Shown here: positions 1,619-60,114 of the stretch, piece by piece
Position numbering within the stretch: the stretch's first letter is position 1
How the letters are laid out: each line of letters opens with the position of its first letter
Assembly (NCBI RefSeq): GCF_009911265.1
Contig: NZ_QXXA01000004.1
Span: forward strand, 124,001-188,000
Direction: 5' to 3'
Length of the DNA: 64,000 bases
Origin: Senegalia massiliensis
GTDB taxonomy: Bacteria > Bacillota > Clostridia > Tissierellales > SIT17
Notes under the pieces: model-generated
What the model was told of the DNA's origin: nothing
The model's input: the letters and a program-made list of their open reading frames with translations, nothing else
The model's database searches: none
Position numbers and translations under genes: made by a program

Positions 1619-2461
1619 ATGAAAAATTTAGATAATAAATTGAAAAAACCTCCTATTAATCCTTTAAGCATTATTGAAACTATGGATAACTGCAAATATA
1701 AACTGGATGATTTGTGTGGTGAAGAAGGTTATACTTTATATAGAGCCGATAAAAATTTTTATCTAATTTGTATTAATGATACTTTATATAAGCCTAGAAT
1801 GTCATTTACTACTGCTCATGAAATAGGTCATGTGGTACTTGGTCATTTTAGAGACTATAAGAATAAAGAATTAAGTGAAGAAGAAGAACAAATATTAGAT
1901 AAAGAAGCTGATGTATTTGCTGGCGAAATACTTATGCCCGAAAATCAAATACATAGCTGCAATCTTAATAATATACATGAATTAAAAGATTATTTTAAAG
2001 TGTCTAAAGAAGCTATGGAAGTCAGATTAAAATTTTTGAATTATGATTCTATATTAGATAATACTAAATTAAATAAGTCACAATTAAAAATGAAGAGCAA
2101 ATTAATATTGCTTAATGAAATAAAAAATACTGTAAAAAAATTTCATAACAAAACTAAGGAGGAGAAAACTATGGCTGATCAGATAATAGAACAATATAAA
2201 GGGTATCCTGTTGATAAGGATAAACAATTATATAATTGCCCTAAGTGTGAATTTTATGATATATCTAAGGATGATAATTACTGCCCTATATGTGGGACTT
2301 ATTTATATAATAAATGTGAGAATCAAGATTGTTCAAAAATACAAGAGGGATATGCTCGTTTTTGTACTAGCTGTGGTTCTTCCACTTATTTATATAAAAA
2401 TGGATTTCTAAACAAATATAAAAATGATAGTTATATTGATGATGAAGATCTTCCTTTTTAA
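1619..2461 (+). CDS. ImmA/IrrE-type metallopeptidase with C-terminal zinc ribbons
   Basis: 280 residues from the first ATG. HEIGH near residues 63-67 (in TTAHEIGHVVLGHF) followed by DKEADVFAGEILMP gives the zinc ligands and catalytic glutamate of the ImmA/IrrE (DUF955) family, which cleaves phage or mobile-element repressors. The last 100 residues add three or four CxxC-type pairs (CPKCEF, CPICG, CENQDC, CTSCG), zinc-ribbon style, not usual in plain ImmA. No ribosome site precedes the ATG at 1619. The frame is open back to 1526 and AGGGGGG at 1531-1537 would suit a rare ATA start at 1544, so the true N-terminus may be about 25 residues longer. Confidence 0.78.
   Translation: MKNLDNKLKKPPINPLSIIETMDNCKYKLDDLCGEEGYTLYRADKNFYLICINDTLYKPRMSFTTAHEIGHVVLGHFRDYKNKELSEEEEQILDKEADVFAGEILMPENQIHSCNLNNIHELKDYFKVSKEAMEVRLKFLNYDSILDNTKLNKSQLKMKSKLILLNEIKNTVKKFHNKTKEEKTMADQIIEQYKGYPVDKDKQLYNCPKCEFYDISKDDNYCPICGTYLYNKCENQDCSKIQEGYARFCTSCGSSTYLYKNGFLNKYKNDSYIDDEDLPF
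2157..2173 (+). promoter_or_regulatory. Strong internal ribosome site and in-frame ATG within the ImmA gene
   Basis: AAGGAGGAG followed eight to nine bases later by ATG (2171) lies inside the ImmA frame and is in phase with it. It would yield a separate 96-residue protein consisting only of the zinc-ribbon part (2171-2461). This is the best ribosome site anywhere in the gene. Confidence 0.55.
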
Positions 2462-2521
2462 TTTTACATATGATGCAAACTATCATATGAAATATATTTA
2501 GAAATCTGGGAGTGATAAAAA

Positions 2522-3706
2522 TTGCCAAAGACAAGAACAAAAGCTAATGGAGAAGGTACTATATATACTCAAACAAGGAATAATAAAAAATATTATAGAG
2601 GCCAAATTGCTATAGGATATGATGAAAAAGGAAATTTAATAAGAAAATCCTTCTCTGGATATGACAAAAAAGATGTTCTCAAAAGAATGAATGAATATCA
2701 ATACAAAATGAATACAGGATTAATATCAGAAGATGATAAAATAACTCTTCAGGAATGGTTTTATACCTGGTTATTTGAATTTAGAAAAATAGATTTAAAA
2801 CCTTCAAGCTTTGAAAGGTATGAAGGAATATATAGAAACTATATAGAAAATTCTCCTATAGCAAAAAAGAAACTTGCTGATATTAGACCAGCTCATATAC
2901 AAAAATATATGAATACTCTTTTGGAAACTAAACCTATATCTACAGTTCATACAGTAAGCAAATTTTTAAGTACTTGTTTAAATGAAGCAGTAAAGCAAAA
3001 CTATATACAAAAGAATCACTGTAAGAGTATTAAGTTACCAAAAAGAGTTAAAGAAGAATCATTTACTGTTTTTACACTTGACGAACAAAAACAATTCATA
3101 GAATCTATTAAAAACCATAAATATCAAATGGCATTTTTATTAAATTTAGGTACTGGATTAAGATTAGGTGAGTTATTAGCACTCAAATGGGATGATATAG
3201 ATTTTGATAACAATACAGTAAATATAAATAAAGCTTTAAAAAGAGTAACCTTTGTAGATAAAGAAGGAAAAAGAAATAATAAGATAATAGAACAAACTCC
3301 TAAAACAGAATCAAGTAATAGAACTGTACCTATACCAGATAATATAATAAATAAACTTAAAAAATACAAAGTAAAACAACTAGAAACAAAATTAAAAAAC
3401 AAGGAATTTTATGAAGAGAAAAATTATATTTTCTGTGATAAATATGGTCATCCTTTAGATCCTAAGAATATACCTAGAAACTTTAAATCTATACTTAAAA
3501 AAGCAGGCATTAGAGAGATTAAATATCATTCACTAAGGCATACATATGCCACAAGACTTTTTGAGGCTGACGTGCCAATTAAAACTGTTCAGTCTTTACT
3601 TGGTCATAGTGATATAACTACTACTATGAATATCTATACTCATGTAACTAAAGAGAAAAAATCTGAAGCTGCAGATAAAATAAATAATTTATTTAGTGTG
3701 CAGTAG
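2522..3706 (+). CDS. int: Tyrosine-recombinase integrase of the element
   Basis: 394 residues. Order: N-terminal arm-binding region (residues about 1-50, GEGTIYTQTRNNKKYYRGQ type), SAM-like core-binding domain (about 70-155), catalytic domain (about 180-390). Catalytic residues are visible: Arg in GTGLRLGELLAL (about 214), HSLRHTYATRLF (about 335-346), LLGHSDITTTMNIYTH with the nucleophile Tyr near 371. It would integrate and excise the element. Start is TTG, preceded by GGGAGTG at a good distance; no nearby ATG competes. The gene ends about 130 bases from a tRNA-Leu 3' fragment, the expected position of an integrase next to its attachment site. Confidence 0.93.
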   Translation: MPKTRTKANGEGTIYTQTRNNKKYYRGQIAIGYDEKGNLIRKSFSGYDKKDVLKRMNEYQYKMNTGLISEDDKITLQEWFYTWLFEFRKIDLKPSSFERYEGIYRNYIENSPIAKKKLADIRPAHIQKYMNTLLETKPISTVHTVSKFLSTCLNEAVKQNYIQKNHCKSIKLPKRVKEESFTVFTLDEQKQFIESIKNHKYQMAFLLNLGTGLRLGELLALKWDDIDFDNNTVNINKALKRVTFVDKEGKRNNKIIEQTPKTESSNRTVPIPDNIINKLKKYKVKQLETKLKNKEFYEEKNYIFCDKYGHPLDPKNIPRNFKSILKKAGIREIKYHSLRHTYATRLFEADVPIKTVQSLLGHSDITTTMNIYTHVTKEKKSEAADKINNLFSVQ

Positions 3707-24538: not shown

Positions 24539-24566
24539 ACCCTTAAGCTGTGCTTAAGGGTTTACC
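24537..24566. terminator. Terminator shared by spoVB and 6S RNA
   Basis: AAACCCTTAAGC, loop TGTG, then CTTAAGGGTTT. The stem is followed by TTTATTTATG on the minus strand, where it ends the 6S RNA transcript, and by a short T-run on the plus strand after spoVB. Confidence 0.75.
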
Positions 24567-24741
24567 CGACATGCCGTCATGCTCATTAATTCATACCCGC
24601 TACTCTCGCAGGTGGGTGCTCTGCTAATAAGTTCTGATGTCCTTTAAAAGGCATACCATACATTATCAGACTCCAAACTCCCATATTATATATGTCGGTT
24701 GAATTAAAGAGAATCTAACGAACATATCAGGAAATTATCTT
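24560..24741 (-). ncRNA. ssrS: 6S RNA
   Basis: The minus-strand transcript starts like 6S RNA: UUUCCUGAUAUGUUCGUUAG closely matches the E. coli 6S 5' end, and the 3' end GACGGCAUGUCGGG parallels GGCGGCAUCUCGG. The 5' CCUGAUAU and 3' AUGUCGGG pair to close the rod. Internal hairpins (UCUGAU/AUCAGA around CCUUUUAAAGG; ACCC/GGGU) flank a weakly paired centre, as needed to mimic an open promoter. A -10 TATAAT lies at 24754-24749, and a weak -35 TTTATT 17 bases further up. 6S RNA binds sigma-A RNA polymerase in stationary phase. Ends are estimates. Confidence 0.82.
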
Positions 24742-32639: not shown

Positions 32640-32870
32640 AACCCATTGTCTCTATATATAGAGACGATGGGTTAAGTCGCGGTACCACTCTAATTGACAT
32701 TTAGTCATCTTTTATCCTATAACGGGGAAAGCCGTCAAATTCTACTATTTTTCAAATTTGAACTCCTAAGTCCATTCAGCAAATACTTAACACTGATCTT
32801 CCACCATCACCAGTTCGCTATAGAAAGATTTTTGCTTACTACTCTTAATCAACGCTTTTCATTTATTTAA
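32640..32870 (-). promoter_or_regulatory. T-box leader, tryptophan-specific
   Basis: The minus strand has the T-box AGTGGTACCGCG (32689-32678) just before an intrinsic terminator (AACCCATCGTCTC / GAGACAATGGGTT plus T-run, 32673-32640). Stem I features precede it: AGUA loop-E sequence, GAACUGGUGAUGG region, and GAA-UGG-A at 32777-32771, where UGG (32774-32772) is the tryptophan specifier. Uncharged tRNA-Trp should pair with UGG and with the T-box UGGU-type bulge and permit read-through into trpS. Confidence 0.93.
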
Positions 32871-54720: not shown

Positions 54721-55470
54721 CTACAATATATCAAGTATATGCTTTTTAATATCATTAAATTTATTTGTTGTAACTATATCCCTACTTCTTGGTCTTGGTA
54801 AATCTATTACTATTTCTTCTTTTACCTTTGCTGGTCTTTCAGATAATATATATATTCTATCTGATAAAAATATCGCTTCTTCTACATCATGCGTAATAAA
54901 AAATATTGAAGCCTTTAATTCTTTTAATACATCTAATAACCATATTTGCATTTTAGACTTAGTTATAGCATCAAGCCCTCCAAATGGTTCATCAAGTAGT
55001 ATTATATCTTCTGAAAACATATATGTTCTCAGAAGTGAAGCACGTTGTCTCATTCCTCCGGATAATTGATGAGGATATTTATATTCAAAACCTTCTAATC
55101 CAAATATATTAAAATATTCTTTTACTATTTCCCTAGCTTGTCTTTTACCTATACCTTTTAAGACTAAAGGAAGTGATACATTATCAATTATCTTTTTCCA
55201 AGGCATAAGTAAATCTTTTTGATACATATAGCTTACTCTACCAGTTTTTGATGTATAGTCTTCGCCTTCTATATAAATATTTCCCTCATCAGGTTTTATA
55301 AGTCCTGAAATCATATTAAATACTGTACTTTTACCACTACCACTTGGTCCTAATATGGTTACAAATTCTTGTTCTTTTAAGTTTATAGTAATATCATCTA
55401 CAATTAATAAATCTTCAAATGACTTAGAAATATGTTTTAATTCTATCTTATTTTTCTGGTAAGAACTCAT
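54721..55470 (-). CDS. thiZ: ABC transporter ATPase for thiamine precursor uptake (ThiZ-like)
   Basis: 249 residues from ATG 55470 behind AGAGGCG; the coding region overlaps the preceding gene by 23 bases. Motifs: Walker A TILGPSGSGKSTVFNMI, signature HQLSGGMRQRASLLR, Walker B EDIILLDEPFGGLDAITK, H-loop ITHDVEEA. The NitT/TauT ATPase subfamily powers uptake of small nutrients; in this operon the ligand is a thiamine pyrimidine. Partners are the permease and binding protein upstream. Confidence 0.9.
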   Translation of the reverse strand: MSSYQKNKIELKHISKSFEDLLIVDDITINLKEQEFVTILGPSGSGKSTVFNMISGLIKPDEGNIYIEGEDYTSKTGRVSYMYQKDLLMPWKKIIDNVSLPLVLKGIGKRQAREIVKEYFNIFGLEGFEYKYPHQLSGGMRQRASLLRTYMFSEDIILLDEPFGGLDAITKSKMQIWLLDVLKELKASIFFITHDVEEAIFLSDRIYILSERPAKVKEEIVIDLPRPRSRDIVTTNKFNDIKKHILDIL

Positions 55471-56455
55471 TTGTATACGCCTCTTGTACATTAAGTTCAT
55501 TTTCTATTAGTTCTCTCTCATACATCCAATTAGCATAGTTTGTCCAAATTTCAGATTTCATTTCTCCCCATCTATCTATGTCTTTTTTATATTCACCTGC
55601 CAAATATTTCTGGCTTTCTATTGCTATATTTTCATCTATTTCTGGATTGTCTTTTAACAGTTCCGTTGCTGCATCTTTTGGATTTTCTATAGCATACTCA
55701 TATCCTTTACTTGTAGCTTCTAAAAATTTTTCTGCAAGTTCTGGTTTGTCTTTTAATAATTTTTCATTTGCAATTATAACTGGAGTATAAAAGTTTAGGT
55801 TTTCATCAAAATCTTGAAGTTTAATAAAATTTAAGTCTATTTCTTTTTCTTCTGATGCTACTCCATCCCAACCATAATAGATCCAAGTAAAGTCTACATG
55901 ATCTTGTACAGCAGTGAAGAAATCTAAACTGCCTATATTAACCATTTCTACTTTTGAAAAATCTGCATTATCTTTTTCCATGAGTCCTTTTATCATAGCT
56001 TCTTCCATAGGAGCTCCAAATCCACCGTATTTTTTACCTTCAAAATCCTTCGGTGATGTTACACCATCTTCTTTAAGAGAAGCAAATCCAGAAGTGTTAT
56101 TTTGTATTATAGCTGAAATAGCTTTTACAGGAAGTGGATTTTCTGATGTTCTAGCATAAGTAACTTCTTCTTGATAGCTAATCCCAAAATCACCTTGTTC
56201 ATTTGCTATTAAATTTGCAGTACCACCTTCAGATGGTTGAATGATTTCAACATCTAATCCTTTTTCTTCATAATAGCCTTTATTTTTTGCTACATATAAC
56301 CCTGTATGATTTGTATTTGGTACCCAATCTAAAACTACAGTTACTTTTTCTAACTCTTTATTTTCTTTTGACTCTTTATTTTCTTTATTTCCACAACCTA
56401 CTAAGATTAATGATACTAATAAAAATACTATAAATATAGAAAATATTTTTTTCAT
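55448..56455 (-). CDS. thiY: Thiamine pyrimidine (ThiY/NMT1-like) substrate-binding lipoprotein
   Basis: 335 residues. Lipoprotein signal (KIFSIFIVFLLVSLILVGCG; Cys 21 lipidated) followed by an NMT1/THI5-like domain: VTVVLDWVPNTNHTGLYVAKN is the hallmark opening, GGTANLIANEQGDFGISYQE follows. Such proteins deliver FAMP or related pyrimidine precursors of thiamine to the ThiX permease. TPP-riboswitch control supports this. Attached outside the membrane. ATG behind GGAGTGATATAA. Confidence 0.93.
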   Translation of the reverse strand: MKKIFSIFIVFLLVSLILVGCGNKENKESKENKELEKVTVVLDWVPNTNHTGLYVAKNKGYYEEKGLDVEIIQPSEGGTANLIANEQGDFGISYQEEVTYARTSENPLPVKAISAIIQNNTSGFASLKEDGVTSPKDFEGKKYGGFGAPMEEAMIKGLMEKDNADFSKVEMVNIGSLDFFTAVQDHVDFTWIYYGWDGVASEEKEIDLNFIKLQDFDENLNFYTPVIIANEKLLKDKPELAEKFLEATSKGYEYAIENPKDAATELLKDNPEIDENIAIESQKYLAGEYKKDIDRWGEMKSEIWTNYANWMYERELIENELNVQEAYTNEFLPEK

Positions 56456-56471
56456 TTATATCACTCCATTT

Positions 56472-57242
56472 TTAATTTTTATTTGTTCCTTTTGCCCAAG
56501 GCATTAAATAATTCTGTAATAAATTAATAATTTTAAATAATATCATGCTAAGGATAACTATTATAATGATTACTGCAAAAAATTTATCTAATGCAAATGA
56601 ATGCTTAACTCTCAACATATATACACCAAGACCATCTTTTCCTCCAAGCCATTCTCCTATAACTGCCCCCATAATACTATATGTTGCAGCAATTCTAAGT
56701 CCTGAAAAAAAACTTACCAAAGAAGCTGGGAACTTTACCTGTTTAAATATTTGAAATTTACTCGCTCCCATAGACTTAAGTAAATTAATTAAATCTTTAT
56801 CTACTGATTCAAGCCCATGAATTAAGCTAACTAATACTGGAAAAAAACAAACAAGTATTACTACCATTATTTTAGGTAACTTTCCAAATCCAAACCATGC
56901 TGCAAAAAGTGGTGCCAAAGCTATTATTGGTACAGTTTGAGAAATTATAACTATAGGATAAATTGCTTTTTTTATAAATTTTACATTATCCATTACAATT
57001 GCTAACACTATGCCTAATATTATAGCTATAAGAAATCCAATAGCTGATTCTTGAAGGGTAGTAGAAATATGTGGCCATATTTCTGAGTTTATCTCTGAAA
57101 ATACTTTTATTATATCTATAGGAGAAGGTAATATGTATCTTTCTACAATACCAACTCTCACTACTACCTCCCATATAAATAACAAGAAAAAAAAGAAAAT
57201 ACTTGGTATTATTTTATTTTCTATATTTGCCCACCTTTTCAT
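56472..57242 (-). CDS. thiX: Thiamine precursor ABC permease (ThiX-like)
   Basis: 256 residues, six membrane segments. The EAA loop is visible in ESVDKDLINLLKSMGASKFQIFKQVKFPASL, which docks the ATPase. Sequence and neighbours match the NitT/TauT-type permease ThiX. The ATG lies within the last 29 bases of the preceding thiamine-binding gene; a ribosome site AAGGTG is about 11 bases upstream, somewhat distant. Confidence 0.92.
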   Translation of the reverse strand: MKRWANIENKIIPSIFFFFLLFIWEVVVRVGIVERYILPSPIDIIKVFSEINSEIWPHISTTLQESAIGFLIAIILGIVLAIVMDNVKFIKKAIYPIVIISQTVPIIALAPLFAAWFGFGKLPKIMVVILVCFFPVLVSLIHGLESVDKDLINLLKSMGASKFQIFKQVKFPASLVSFFSGLRIAATYSIMGAVIGEWLGGKDGLGVYMLRVKHSFALDKFFAVIIIIVILSMILFKIINLLQNYLMPWAKGTNKN

Positions 57243-57513
57243 TCATTGTCACACCTTCTGGTTTATAATCTATTTTAACTACTGATAATATTCTAGAAGC
57301 CCCTTCTCTTACACAGATATCTTGAGCTTTTTTTACTATATTAATAAGCTCATCAAATTCTCCCTCCATTGTAGTACCCATAGGTCCTACTTCATATTTA
57401 ACTCCACAACTATCAATGTATTTTATAACTTCGTCCACTACATCATATAGTCTTTTCTCTTCAACACGTGGTAATACTTGAAGTTCCACATTTACAATTG
57501 GCACAAAAATCAT
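57214..57513 (-). CDS. MTH1187/YkoF-family thiamine-binding protein (1)
   Basis: 99 residues. VELQVLPRVEEKRLYDVVDEVIKYIDSCG, then YEVGPMGTTMEGEFDELINI and ICVREGASRILSVVKIDYKPEG are the complete MTH1187 (DUF77) family pattern. Related proteins bind thiamine-like ligands and sit in thiamine operons. It is the first gene after the TPP riboswitch and overlaps the permease gene by 29 bases. Cytoplasmic. ATG preceded by AAGGAGATGATTTTT. Confidence 0.9.
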   Translation of the reverse strand: MIFVPIVNVELQVLPRVEEKRLYDVVDEVIKYIDSCGVKYEVGPMGTTMEGEFDELINIVKKAQDICVREGASRILSVVKIDYKPEGVTMNEKVGKYRK

Positions 57514-57537
57514 CTCCTTATATTTAAATTAAATAAA

Positions 57538-57559
57538 CCCCTTCATATGCATGAAGGGG
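57538..57559 (-). terminator. Expression-platform terminator of the TPP riboswitch
   Basis: CCCCTTCAT, ATGC loop region, ATGAAGGGG followed on the minus strand by GTTTATTT. It lies between the aptamer and the first gene, so thiamine diphosphate should favour termination here. Confidence 0.8.
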
Positions 57560-57584
57560 CCAATAACCATAAACTAAAAAATTA

Positions 57585-57664
57585 TTCTCCCTTCGCTGGC
57601 ATTATCCAGTGCAGGTTCATGGGTCGAAATTCATATTTCCTCTCAGCTAATTTTAGCTCCCCAG
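57585..57664 (-). promoter_or_regulatory. TPP (THI-box) riboswitch aptamer
   Basis: Minus strand: CTGGGGAGCT, AGCTGAGAGG (CUGAGA), ACCCATGAACCTG and GCCAGCGAAGGGAG, the standard order of the TPP aptamer, with P2 and P4-P5 sequences conserved. It precedes a terminator and the thiamine-uptake operon. High thiamine diphosphate would shut the operon off. Confidence 0.95.
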
Positions 57665-57685
57665 ATTTTTATTATTTTCGTGTTA

Positions 57686-58039: not shown

Positions 58040-58062
58040 ATAGCGACTTTTAGTCGCTATTT
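58038..58062. terminator. Bidirectional terminator between grx and murI
   Basis: AAATAGCGACT, TTT loop, AGTCGCTATTT; convergent genes. Confidence 0.85.
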
Positions 58063-58815
58063 ACTTTGTAATAAATTTAAATATTTTACTAATATTTCAT
58101 TGTCTTCTTTACCAGAAATATAAAATGTTATTTTATCTTTTTTCTTATCTTCAAATCTGTCTTTTATATTCAATAAATTTTTCAAATGATTTATCGTTCC
58201 ATAATTACCATCTATTATATCAATAGTATTTGGAAGAACTTTTTTAAAAAATTCTTTGTAATAAGGAAAATGTGTACATCCTAATACTACTGTACCATAT
58301 TCATCTAAATTAAATTTTTCAAATTCTTTTCTTAAATAAGAGATTATTACATCTTCTTCAAAAATAAAATTTTCTGCATATTCTACTAACTTAGGTAATG
58401 GTAAAGAGTCTACTATGTCTCTAGAATTTAGTCTTGTAACTAAATCATTAAATTTCTTTTCCTTTAAGGTTAAAGAAGTTGCTGTAACTATAACTTTCTT
58501 ATCTTCTGAATTTTCTACTGCAGGTTTTACTGCAGGTTCCATTCCTATTATAGGAAAATTATATTTATCTCTCAAATCCTTCACTGCAATACTTGTAGCT
58601 GTATTACATGCTATTATAAGAGCATCTATATTTTTAGTACTTAAAAACTCTACTACATCAAATATATATTTTTTAACTTCTTCTTTAGGTTTTGTACCAT
58701 AAGGAACATTTAACTTGTCTGCATAATATATATATTCTTGCCCTGACAACTGTGTTAAAGCTTCTTTTAATACAGTTATTCCTCCTACTCCTGAATCAAA
58801 TATACCAATTTTCAT
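58057..58815 (-). CDS. murI: Glutamate racemase
   Basis: 252 residues. Both catalytic cysteines are in context: LIIACNTATSIAV (CNT) and VVLGCTHFPYYKEFF (CTH). The N-terminal IGIFDSGVGGITVLKEAL and ADKLNVPYGTKP match the family. MurI makes D-glutamate for peptidoglycan. Single gene, ATG after GGAGGAAAAAA. Confidence 0.95.
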   Translation of the reverse strand: MKIGIFDSGVGGITVLKEALTQLSGQEYIYYADKLNVPYGTKPKEEVKKYIFDVVEFLSTKNIDALIIACNTATSIAVKDLRDKYNFPIIGMEPAVKPAVENSEDKKVIVTATSLTLKEKKFNDLVTRLNSRDIVDSLPLPKLVEYAENFIFEEDVIISYLRKEFEKFNLDEYGTVVLGCTHFPYYKEFFKKVLPNTIDIIDGNYGTINHLKNLLNIKDRFEDKKKDKITFYISGKEDNEILVKYLNLLQSK

Positions 58816-59031
58816 AATTTTTTTCCTCCATAAAACTTTATATATTAATATTATAGAGTATACCCCTTATTTAGACAAATATAATTTTAAAATAAAAAAT
58901 ATCAACACTATTATAGTATTGATGCTCTTTGCATATTACTCATTTTATTTTTATTATTTTCTTCAAATTTATTATGAGGTCTAAAATAAAACATTTAAGA
59001 TATATTATATCCTAAATTATATTCAGCGCCA

Positions 59032-59184
59032 TTATACACATTTATATTTTTCTCTTTCCCAATCAATGCTCCTTGTATTATTTGGTACAAGGACTAGAGT
59101 ATATATAGAAGGGTCTTCTAACAGTATCTGGCTATTACCTATTTCATAACCATTATTTTCATATAATTGAATAAATATTACATA
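59032..59184 (-). pseudogene. Decayed C-terminal gene fragment upstream of the XRE-cobalamin regulator
   Basis: In the 58816-59217 gap the minus strand is open for about 50 codons up to a TAA at 59032 and reads like real protein (YEIGNSQILLEDPSIYTLV then PNNTRSIDWEREKYKCV), without any start codon or ribosome site. Composition is that of a coding region, unlike the rest of the gap. It is probably the tail of a gene whose front was lost. Family not recognised. The remaining gap (58816-59031) holds an imperfect inverted repeat at 58901-58923 and otherwise AT-rich DNA. Confidence 0.35.
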
Positions 59185-59217
59185 GTGTGTTATTATATAT
59201 AAGAGGAGCTGAATATT

Positions 59218-60114
59218 ATGAATATTTTTGGTAAAAGACTTAAAAAATTAAGAAAAGATTATTCATTAACTCAAAAAATATTAGCGTCAAAATTAGGAAT
59301 AGGTCAAACTACCATAGCAAACTATGAGAATGGTTCTAGGTTCCCTAATCAACAAATTTTAAAAAACTTTGCGGATTTTTTTAATGTTTCAATAGATTAC
59401 TTAGTAGGAAGAACAGAAAACACAAACACTTTAAGTTCAACTTCTACTAATATAAATAAAGATAATATAAATTTTTATAAGCTTTCAAATCTCTATTTCA
59501 TGAATTTAAAACAAGAAAATATTTTTAAAGCTACTAATTTATTATTAGAACTAGTTAGTAAAAATATAAAACTTGAAGATATCTATCATCAAATAATTGA
59601 ACCTTCATTAGTTAAAGTAGGTGATATGTGGGAAAAAAATGAACTAACTGTAGGTGAAGAACACTTTTTTACTGAAGCAACTAAAAGGATAATGTCAAGT
59701 ATTTATTCACAATATCCAATTATTGAAATTAAAAACTTAAATGCTTTATTTTTTTGTGCACATGGTGAAAGACATTCTATAGGAATTAGAATGGTATCTG
59801 ATATTTTAGAACAAAATGGATGGAAAGTATATTTTTTAGGTACAGATTTGCCTATTGATAGTATCTTAAGTATGATTAAAAATAAAAAAATTGATTTAAT
59901 AGCTATATCAACTACAATGGACTATAATATAAATAGTATTAAATCAATGATTAAAAATATAAAACTAAATTGTGAAAATAAAGATATTAAATTTTTAGTA
60001 GGTGGTAAACCTTTTAACCTTGATAAAACCCTAGTGAACTTTGTCGGAGCAGATGGATACGCTAAAAATTGTAAACAAGTAGTAAAAGTGGCTAACTCTC
60101 TTATTAAAAATTAA
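59218..60114 (+). CDS. XRE-type regulator fused to a CarH-like cobalamin-binding module
   Basis: 298 residues. HTH of XRE type at 1-62 (LRKDYSLTQKILASKLGIGQ region), a Ser/Thr/Asn linker (63-85), a four-helix B12-binding cap (86-165) and a Rossmann-like B12 domain (175-298). The cap has W138-x9-E148-H149, the signature of CarH/LitR adenosylcobalamin photoreceptors, and the B12 domain has GERHSIG (ExHxxG; His 186 as lower ligand), the CarH form rather than DxHxxG. The residue after Trp is Glu, whereas in Thermus CarH, as I recall, a His there forms the light-state adduct. CarH proteins carry a MerR-type HTH; the XRE head here is unusual. Likely a B12-dependent, perhaps light-dependent, repressor. 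Confidence 0.85.
   Translation: MNIFGKRLKKLRKDYSLTQKILASKLGIGQTTIANYENGSRFPNQQILKNFADFFNVSIDYLVGRTENTNTLSSTSTNINKDNINFYKLSNLYFMNLKQENIFKATNLLLELVSKNIKLEDIYHQIIEPSLVKVGDMWEKNELTVGEEHFFTEATKRIMSSIYSQYPIIEIKNLNALFFCAHGERHSIGIRMVSDILEQNGWKVYFLGTDLPIDSILSMIKNKKIDLIAISTTMDYNINSIKSMIKNIKLNCENKDIKFLVGGKPFNLDKTLVNFVGADGYAKNCKQVVKVANSLIKN

Follow-up and report, generated by a model that had tools for sequence, protein, structure and literature searches.

A predicted cobalamin-dependent, light-sensing repressor with an XRE-type DNA-binding domain in Senegalia massiliensis and related bacteria

Features and sensor residues of the regulator

The window, which is the whole 64,000-nucleotide stretch of DNA analyzed, comes from a relative of the strict anaerobe Anaeromonas. 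It encodes a regulator in which an XRE-type helix-turn-helix (HTH) is joined to a cobalamin-binding module, hereafter XRE-B12. The locus contains the following features:

about 58959–59177, minus strand: decayed remnant of a divergent crtI gene (phytoene desaturase family), recognized from protein matches and three DNA blocks
59167–59196, plus strand: predicted sigma-A promoter (TTGAAT - 18 bp - TATTAT) enclosing the operator, in the same register as the TTGACA promoters of four fasciclin-XRE-B12 operons
59176–59193, plus strand: predicted operator TATTACATAGTGTGTTAT in the spacer of the gene's own promoter, suggesting autoregulation; held-out score 16.4 bits, conserved in the congener G001
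59218–60114, plus strand: XRE-B12 regulator gene, 298 amino acids, stop codon included; no internal stops; dN/dS 0.195 against G001
59230–59406, plus strand: XRE (Cro/C1-type) HTH, residues 5–63; HTH_19 53.5 bits, HTH_3 49.7 bits, PDB match 7t8i
59533–59697, plus strand: four-helix cap (B12-binding_2), residues 106–160, with G135xxW138, Glu139 and E148-H149; Pfam 44.2 bits, family alignment and the TtCarH segment
59746–60066, plus strand: B12-binding Rossmann domain, residues 177–283, with G183xxH186 and G208xxxP212; Pfam 70 bits and the signature of PMC11796333

A reading of the sequence alone had proposed that an XRE HTH is fused here to a sensor resembling that of CarH, and domain models, residue alignment, fold and an alignment of 14 family members all support this architecture. 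HTH_19, HTH_3, B12-binding_2 and B12-binding each exceed their Pfam cut-offs, and no MerR family of Pfam matches the protein even at E ≤ 1. The PDB match of the HTH, 7t8i, is an XRE regulator of ICEBs1. Equivalog models of NCBIfam score far lower than their cut-offs, with 40.3 bits against 400 for CarH (NF052513) and about 64 bits against 350–370 for MtbC and MtgC. The HTH, cap and B12 domains were the only ones found in the 298 residues, which contain no bilin-binding globin domain.

The motifs W138-x9-E148-H149 in the cap and E184-R-H186-x-x-G189 in the B12 domain were located as the sequence-only reading had described them, and the residue following the Trp is indeed Glu. All elements of the four-part signature for light-responsive cobalamin-binding domains (SignatureFinder: GxxW, EH, GxxH and GxxxP; PMC11796333) are present, as G135DMW138, E148H149, G183ERH186 and G208TDLP212. 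In an alignment based on PDB entries, the regulator (VGDMWEKNELTVGEEH ... GERHSIG ... GTDLP) is in register with Thermus thermophilus CarH (TtCarH; VGEAWHRGEIGVAEEH ... GERHEIG ... GPDTP). The Trp, Glu-His and ExHxxG positions do superpose on CarH, with W138, E148-H149 and H186 matching Trp131, Glu141-His142 and His177 of its adenosylcobalamin (AdoCbl) pocket. His186 is the expected lower axial cobalt ligand. Across 14 homologues, the most distant sharing 30% identity, W138 and H186 never vary and E148/H149 vary little or not at all; the motifs are therefore not a chance occurrence.

One point in the original argument required revision. The use of ExHxxG, rather than DxHxxG, as a CarH-like photoreceptor marker was rejected: CtMerR has GDLH, two XRE-B12 family members have D, and W-x9-EH together with ExHxxG is common to many B12 sensors that carry the same WE...EH motif and have no HTH. 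Glu139 does occupy the position of the TtCarH light-state ligand His132, as had been noted, and published cases answer the doubt raised on that account. This position is Arg in CtMerR, Gln in SasPcob and Tyr in AbDPcob, all of which still photolyse, and CtMerR retains its tetramer-to-monomer transition (PMC11796333).

Searches with a profile of the 14 family members against PDB sequences gave the photocobilin 8j2x/8j2w (4.5e-28) and CtMerR 8jbs (3.5e-27) as best matches, with corrinoid proteins and TtCarH (8.4e-14) ranking behind. An AlphaFold2 model of the regulator (pLDDT 88.8) was compared with known structures, including the comparison with TtCarH suggested earlier. VIA-align yielded Z scores of 25.9 for photocobilin, 24.2 for CtMerR, 20.4 for AerR (7te2) and 18.9 for TtCarH (rmsd 2.7 over 199 residues), and the top Foldseek match was CtMerR. 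Corrinoid proteins and MetH have the same fold, with Z of about 22 (22.4 for 3ezx), so fold by itself does not decide function. In a tree of sensor domains, XRE-B12 proteins stand apart from TtCarH and two other CarH-type MerR proteins; deep support in this tree is weak, and it neither shows nor excludes a single origin of the XRE fusion.

Family distribution, gene neighbourhoods and a shared near-palindrome

Relatives were recovered by searching genome contigs with a cap-plus-B12 alignment, as a single-protein scan returned nothing. This search for the XRE-B12 architecture, which the sequence-only reading had recommended, found a family in Tissierellales, Halanaerobiales, Clostridium and Spirochaetota. 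The gene is present in two congeners, including Anaeromonas frigoriresistens, and in several members of the same order, including Thermohalobacter berrensis; 10 of the 249 Tissierellales genomes encode such proteins. Further members occur in Natroniella, Clostridium sp. DSM 17811, one Halanaerobiaceae metagenome-assembled genome (MAG), four Spirochaetota MAGs and three more Bacillota genomes, one of which has two copies. Neither the XRE-B12 gene nor the divergent crtI occurs in G002, a fourth member of the genus. The Thermohalobacteraceae, in which Anaeromonas is now included, are described as strictly anaerobic inhabitants of saline and anoxic sediments (PMC12044194). We also observed B12 sensors with a different N-terminal domain at four loci (L015, L018, L019, L021). 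GGDEF-type genes come after three of these sensors, and in some of the four, His or Tyr follows the Trp (L015, WHHNKISVAKEH).

Genes adjoining the XRE-B12 gene differ between lineages. A crtI-family gene is divergent from it in G001 and G003 (TIGR02734 466 bits, cut-off 238). The layout is the same in the Halanaerobiaceae MAG (L061, 480 bits), whose CrtI shares just 46% identity. In the four Spirochaetota MAGs, a phytoene/squalene synthase gene (crtB; PF00494 171–176 bits) is convergent. Natroniella and G347 have divergent cofG-cofH-DICT genes, Thermohalobacter has an ECF component and a DICT gene alongside, and in four genomes the gene immediately upstream encodes a secreted fasciclin. The cofG-cofH (FO synthase) and DICT-domain genes form one operon (L051 397–3018, L170 3853–6468). 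Photolyase as the reason for cofGH is unsupported, given that neither Natroniella nor G347 encodes one; the FO may serve another light-linked protein. The fasciclin (FAS1) proteins encoded immediately before XRE-B12 are of LPXTG or secreted type (L013, L014, L020, L140), and in Eleftheria terrae (L212) a fasciclin gene is likewise divergent from a MerR-type CarH homologue. We saw no B12 synthesis gene adjoining XRE-B12 genes. No light-linked neighbour was found for L052, G597, G014, G262, G163 or the second copy in G347, and a CrtI relative in G013 has neither an adjoining XRE-B12 gene nor an operator site.

A near-palindrome, TATYWCA-NNN-TGWRNTA, lies upstream of 14 XRE-B12 family members. 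The 18-bp EM motif, obtained from 11 upstream regions, has a log-likelihood ratio of 76.6, compared with at most 51.2 in eight shuffled sets. Matrix scoring was used because a simple 12-position palindrome count is too weak in AT-rich DNA. Held-out loci scored 14–20 bits, and intergenic controls from these loci stayed at ≤10.5, apart from a single piece that belongs to the L052 upstream region itself. The window site reached 16.4 bits, and none of the window's 49 intergenic controls exceeded 6.6. With a matrix made without the fasciclin group, sites of 16.3, 17.9, 18.5 and 16.9 bits were recovered ahead of all four fasciclin operons.

Wherever the promoter is readable, the near-palindrome fills the −35/−10 spacer, as in G035 (TTGACA-AA-TATTACATATAGTGATAT) and the window (TTGAAT-AAA-TATTACATAGTGTGTTAT). 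The same placement is seen in target-side promoters, namely those of cofG (L051, L170) and of ECF/DICT genes (L028). This is where a repressor would be expected to bind in order to block RNA polymerase, and from the linkage in 14 loci we infer that the XRE-B12 protein binds the near-palindrome. It was considered that the motif might merely reflect an extended −10 element (TGTGnTATAAT). This is partly possible for the right half only, and is countered by the left half TATYWCA, the occurrence of both orientations, the held-out scores and the exact spacer register.

The site is absent at XRE-B12 members without Glu-His (G262 and the second copy in G347), and was not found ahead of the divergent XRE-B12 genes L171 and L173, both of which also lack Glu-His. 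In most Spirochaete MAGs the motif was not found ahead of crtB or the operon; one 14.1-bit site precedes crtB in L059. Genome-wide scans are barely above a reversed-pattern control (18 vs 15 sites in G000, 18 vs 10 in G001, 21 vs 13 in G003), and a wider regulon is therefore not claimed. One further site was noted at L185 (G001:C1, about 101 kb; 2050–3017), where a 17.4-bit motif stands ahead of the gene for another, short B12-binding protein, after which comes an ABC permease gene; an exonuclease III-like gene lies about 140 bp away on the other side. The corresponding B12 gene in G000 has lost its start.

Decay of crtI and interpretation of the regulator

In the window, crtI remnants lie between the regulator and a glutamate racemase gene (murI, 58057–58815, minus strand). 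On the minus strand, protein matches to the G001 CrtI are 68% (59041–59199) and 65% (58977–59054) identical, and three collinear DNA blocks are 82–91% identical, with deletions in between. The regulator has evolved no faster here than in G001, and its dN/dS resembles that of murI (0.17). Hence the target has decayed in this species and the regulator has not: the latter is under purifying selection. Elsewhere in the window are a thiamine-precursor-like ABC transporter operon (54721–57673, minus strand) with a TPP riboswitch ahead (57571–57673), and, from Rfam, a 6S RNA (24559–24736, minus strand) and a T-box leader (32657–32861, minus strand).

One interpretation of this locus, compatible with the best explanation for the family as a whole, is that the regulator is a relic heading for decay after its target was lost. 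The crtI remnant, the missing start codon in G000 of the B12-sensor/ABC gene that bears the motif in G001, and the lack of both XRE-B12 and crtI in the congeneric G002 are in line with it. Set against these are an intact open reading frame with all signature residues, the low dN/dS and an intact operator-promoter, and we regard a relic as rather unlikely.

The explanation we favor, with a probability of about 0.72, is that the regulator is an AdoCbl-dependent light-sensing repressor in which an XRE HTH replaces the MerR HTH of CarH/LitR. In the dark, AdoCbl held between the Trp/Glu-His cap and the His186-bearing Rossmann domain would keep the protein oligomeric, and the oligomer would bind TATYWCA-NNN-TGWRNTA. 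With this operator in the −35/−10 spacer of its own and the neighbouring target promoter, RNA polymerase would be excluded. Light would break the Co-C bond, the adenosyl group would depart and the oligomer would change or dissociate, releasing photoprotection genes that depending on species would be crtI, crtB, cofGH-DICT or the fasciclin gene. In the window species, the regulator and a putative autoregulatory site would persist beyond their crtI target.

Some observations count against a light-released repressor. Glu139 replaces His132, and in TtCarH the H132A variant loses the ability to monomerise while still undergoing photolysis (PMC11796333, PMC10442372). The Thermohalobacteraceae are described as strict anaerobes (PMC12044194). 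The full, final light state of TtCarH requires O2. In addition, phytoene/squalene synthase was not found in Anaeromonas genomes although crtI is present, and several family members have no light-linked neighbour.

The main rival is a pure B12-status sensor, that is, a repressor that reports AdoCbl sufficiency, releases its operator when AdoCbl is lost and has no physiological role in light. OraE, an AdoCbl enzyme, is encoded in the genome (1407 bits, cut-off 800); AdoCbl is thus expected in the cell and would be a metabolite worth sensing. The anoxic sediment habitat and the Glu at the light-state ligand position also fit this proposal. However, no gene for B12 synthesis, uptake or a B12 enzyme is among the family neighbours examined, which are instead crtI, crtB, cofGH, DICT and fasciclin genes, and the Trp/Glu-His adenosyl pocket is best matched by photoreceptors. 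The sequence-only reading had left light and B12 status undecided; the gene neighbourhoods favor light, and a role confined to B12 status appears unlikely. Alternatively, the protein could be an MtaC/MtbC-related corrinoid-binding protein with an added HTH that regulates methyl transfer or one-carbon metabolism. The shared fold (3ezx) and weak matches to MtbC and MtgC speak for this reading, but it is highly improbable given how far those scores fall under the cut-offs, the absence of Trp and Glu-His at the aligned positions of the Desulfitobacterium corrinoid protein 4jgi where the XRE-B12 family retains them, and the lack of a linked methyltransferase gene at any full-length XRE-B12 gene.

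If the light-released repressor is correct, the family might represent a separately assembled class of B12-photoreceptor repressor, XRE-based, found in anaerobic Bacillota and Spirochaetota, with Glu for His132, perhaps independent of O2, and acting on genes for carotenoids, deazaflavin (FO) and fasciclin by way of a single conserved in-promoter operator. We advance this broader claim tentatively, at slightly worse than even odds. An XRE-based family with a near-palindromic operator of its own would mean that evolution has combined the B12 light sensor with more than one kind of DNA-binding domain, and would be a source of new green-light optogenetic switches. As the hosts are anaerobic and the His132 ligand is absent, signalling without bis-His ligation and without O2 would be directly testable. 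The family further suggests that strict anaerobes living in saline sediments protect themselves against light, and would associate fasciclin, FO-synthase and DICT genes with control by light.

Relationship to known cobalamin sensors and XRE repressors

Literature searches turned up no description of an XRE-type B12 photoreceptor. HTH fusions are mentioned in general terms in PMC11796333, and the XRE-B12 architecture may already be in the network of that paper, unnamed. What is new here is the family, its neighbours, the shared near-palindrome and the decay of crtI beside a conserved regulator.

The regulator probably works like CarH, yet its HTH type and its score with the NCBIfam CarH model place it outside CarH/LitR. 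With class I CarH/LitR proteins such as TtCarH, it shares an N-terminal HTH, a cap and B12 Rossmann sensor in which the Trp, Glu-His and axial His line up, and a predicted role as repressor at a promoter. Carotenoid-gene linkage, a trait of that group, is seen through crtI or crtB in the regulator's relatives, the window having only a remnant. CarH/LitR regulators in the literature examined have a MerR HTH, and TtCarH has His132, whereas the regulator has an XRE HTH and Glu139; TtCarH and the two other CarH-type proteins separate from it in the tree, and XRE-B12 hosts are anaerobes. CtMerR (Chloracidobacterium thermophilum, PDB 8JBS/8JBT) is among the best sequence matches and likewise has no His132 equivalent, but its HTH is of MerR type. 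The photocobilins (SasPcob, AbPcob; 8J2W-8J2Y) have the B12 light-sensor domain and are the best structural match of the sensor half; theirs is accompanied by a bilin-binding globin domain, in place of which the regulator has an HTH. AerR/PpaA and stand-alone B12 sensors share the sensor fold. AerR works via CrtJ (PMC5362033), whereas the regulator bears its own DNA-binding domain. Finally, XRE phage-type repressors such as ICEBs1 ImmR (7t8i) share the HTH family and a near-palindromic operator within the promoter, the difference being that the regulator's sensor is a cobalamin domain.
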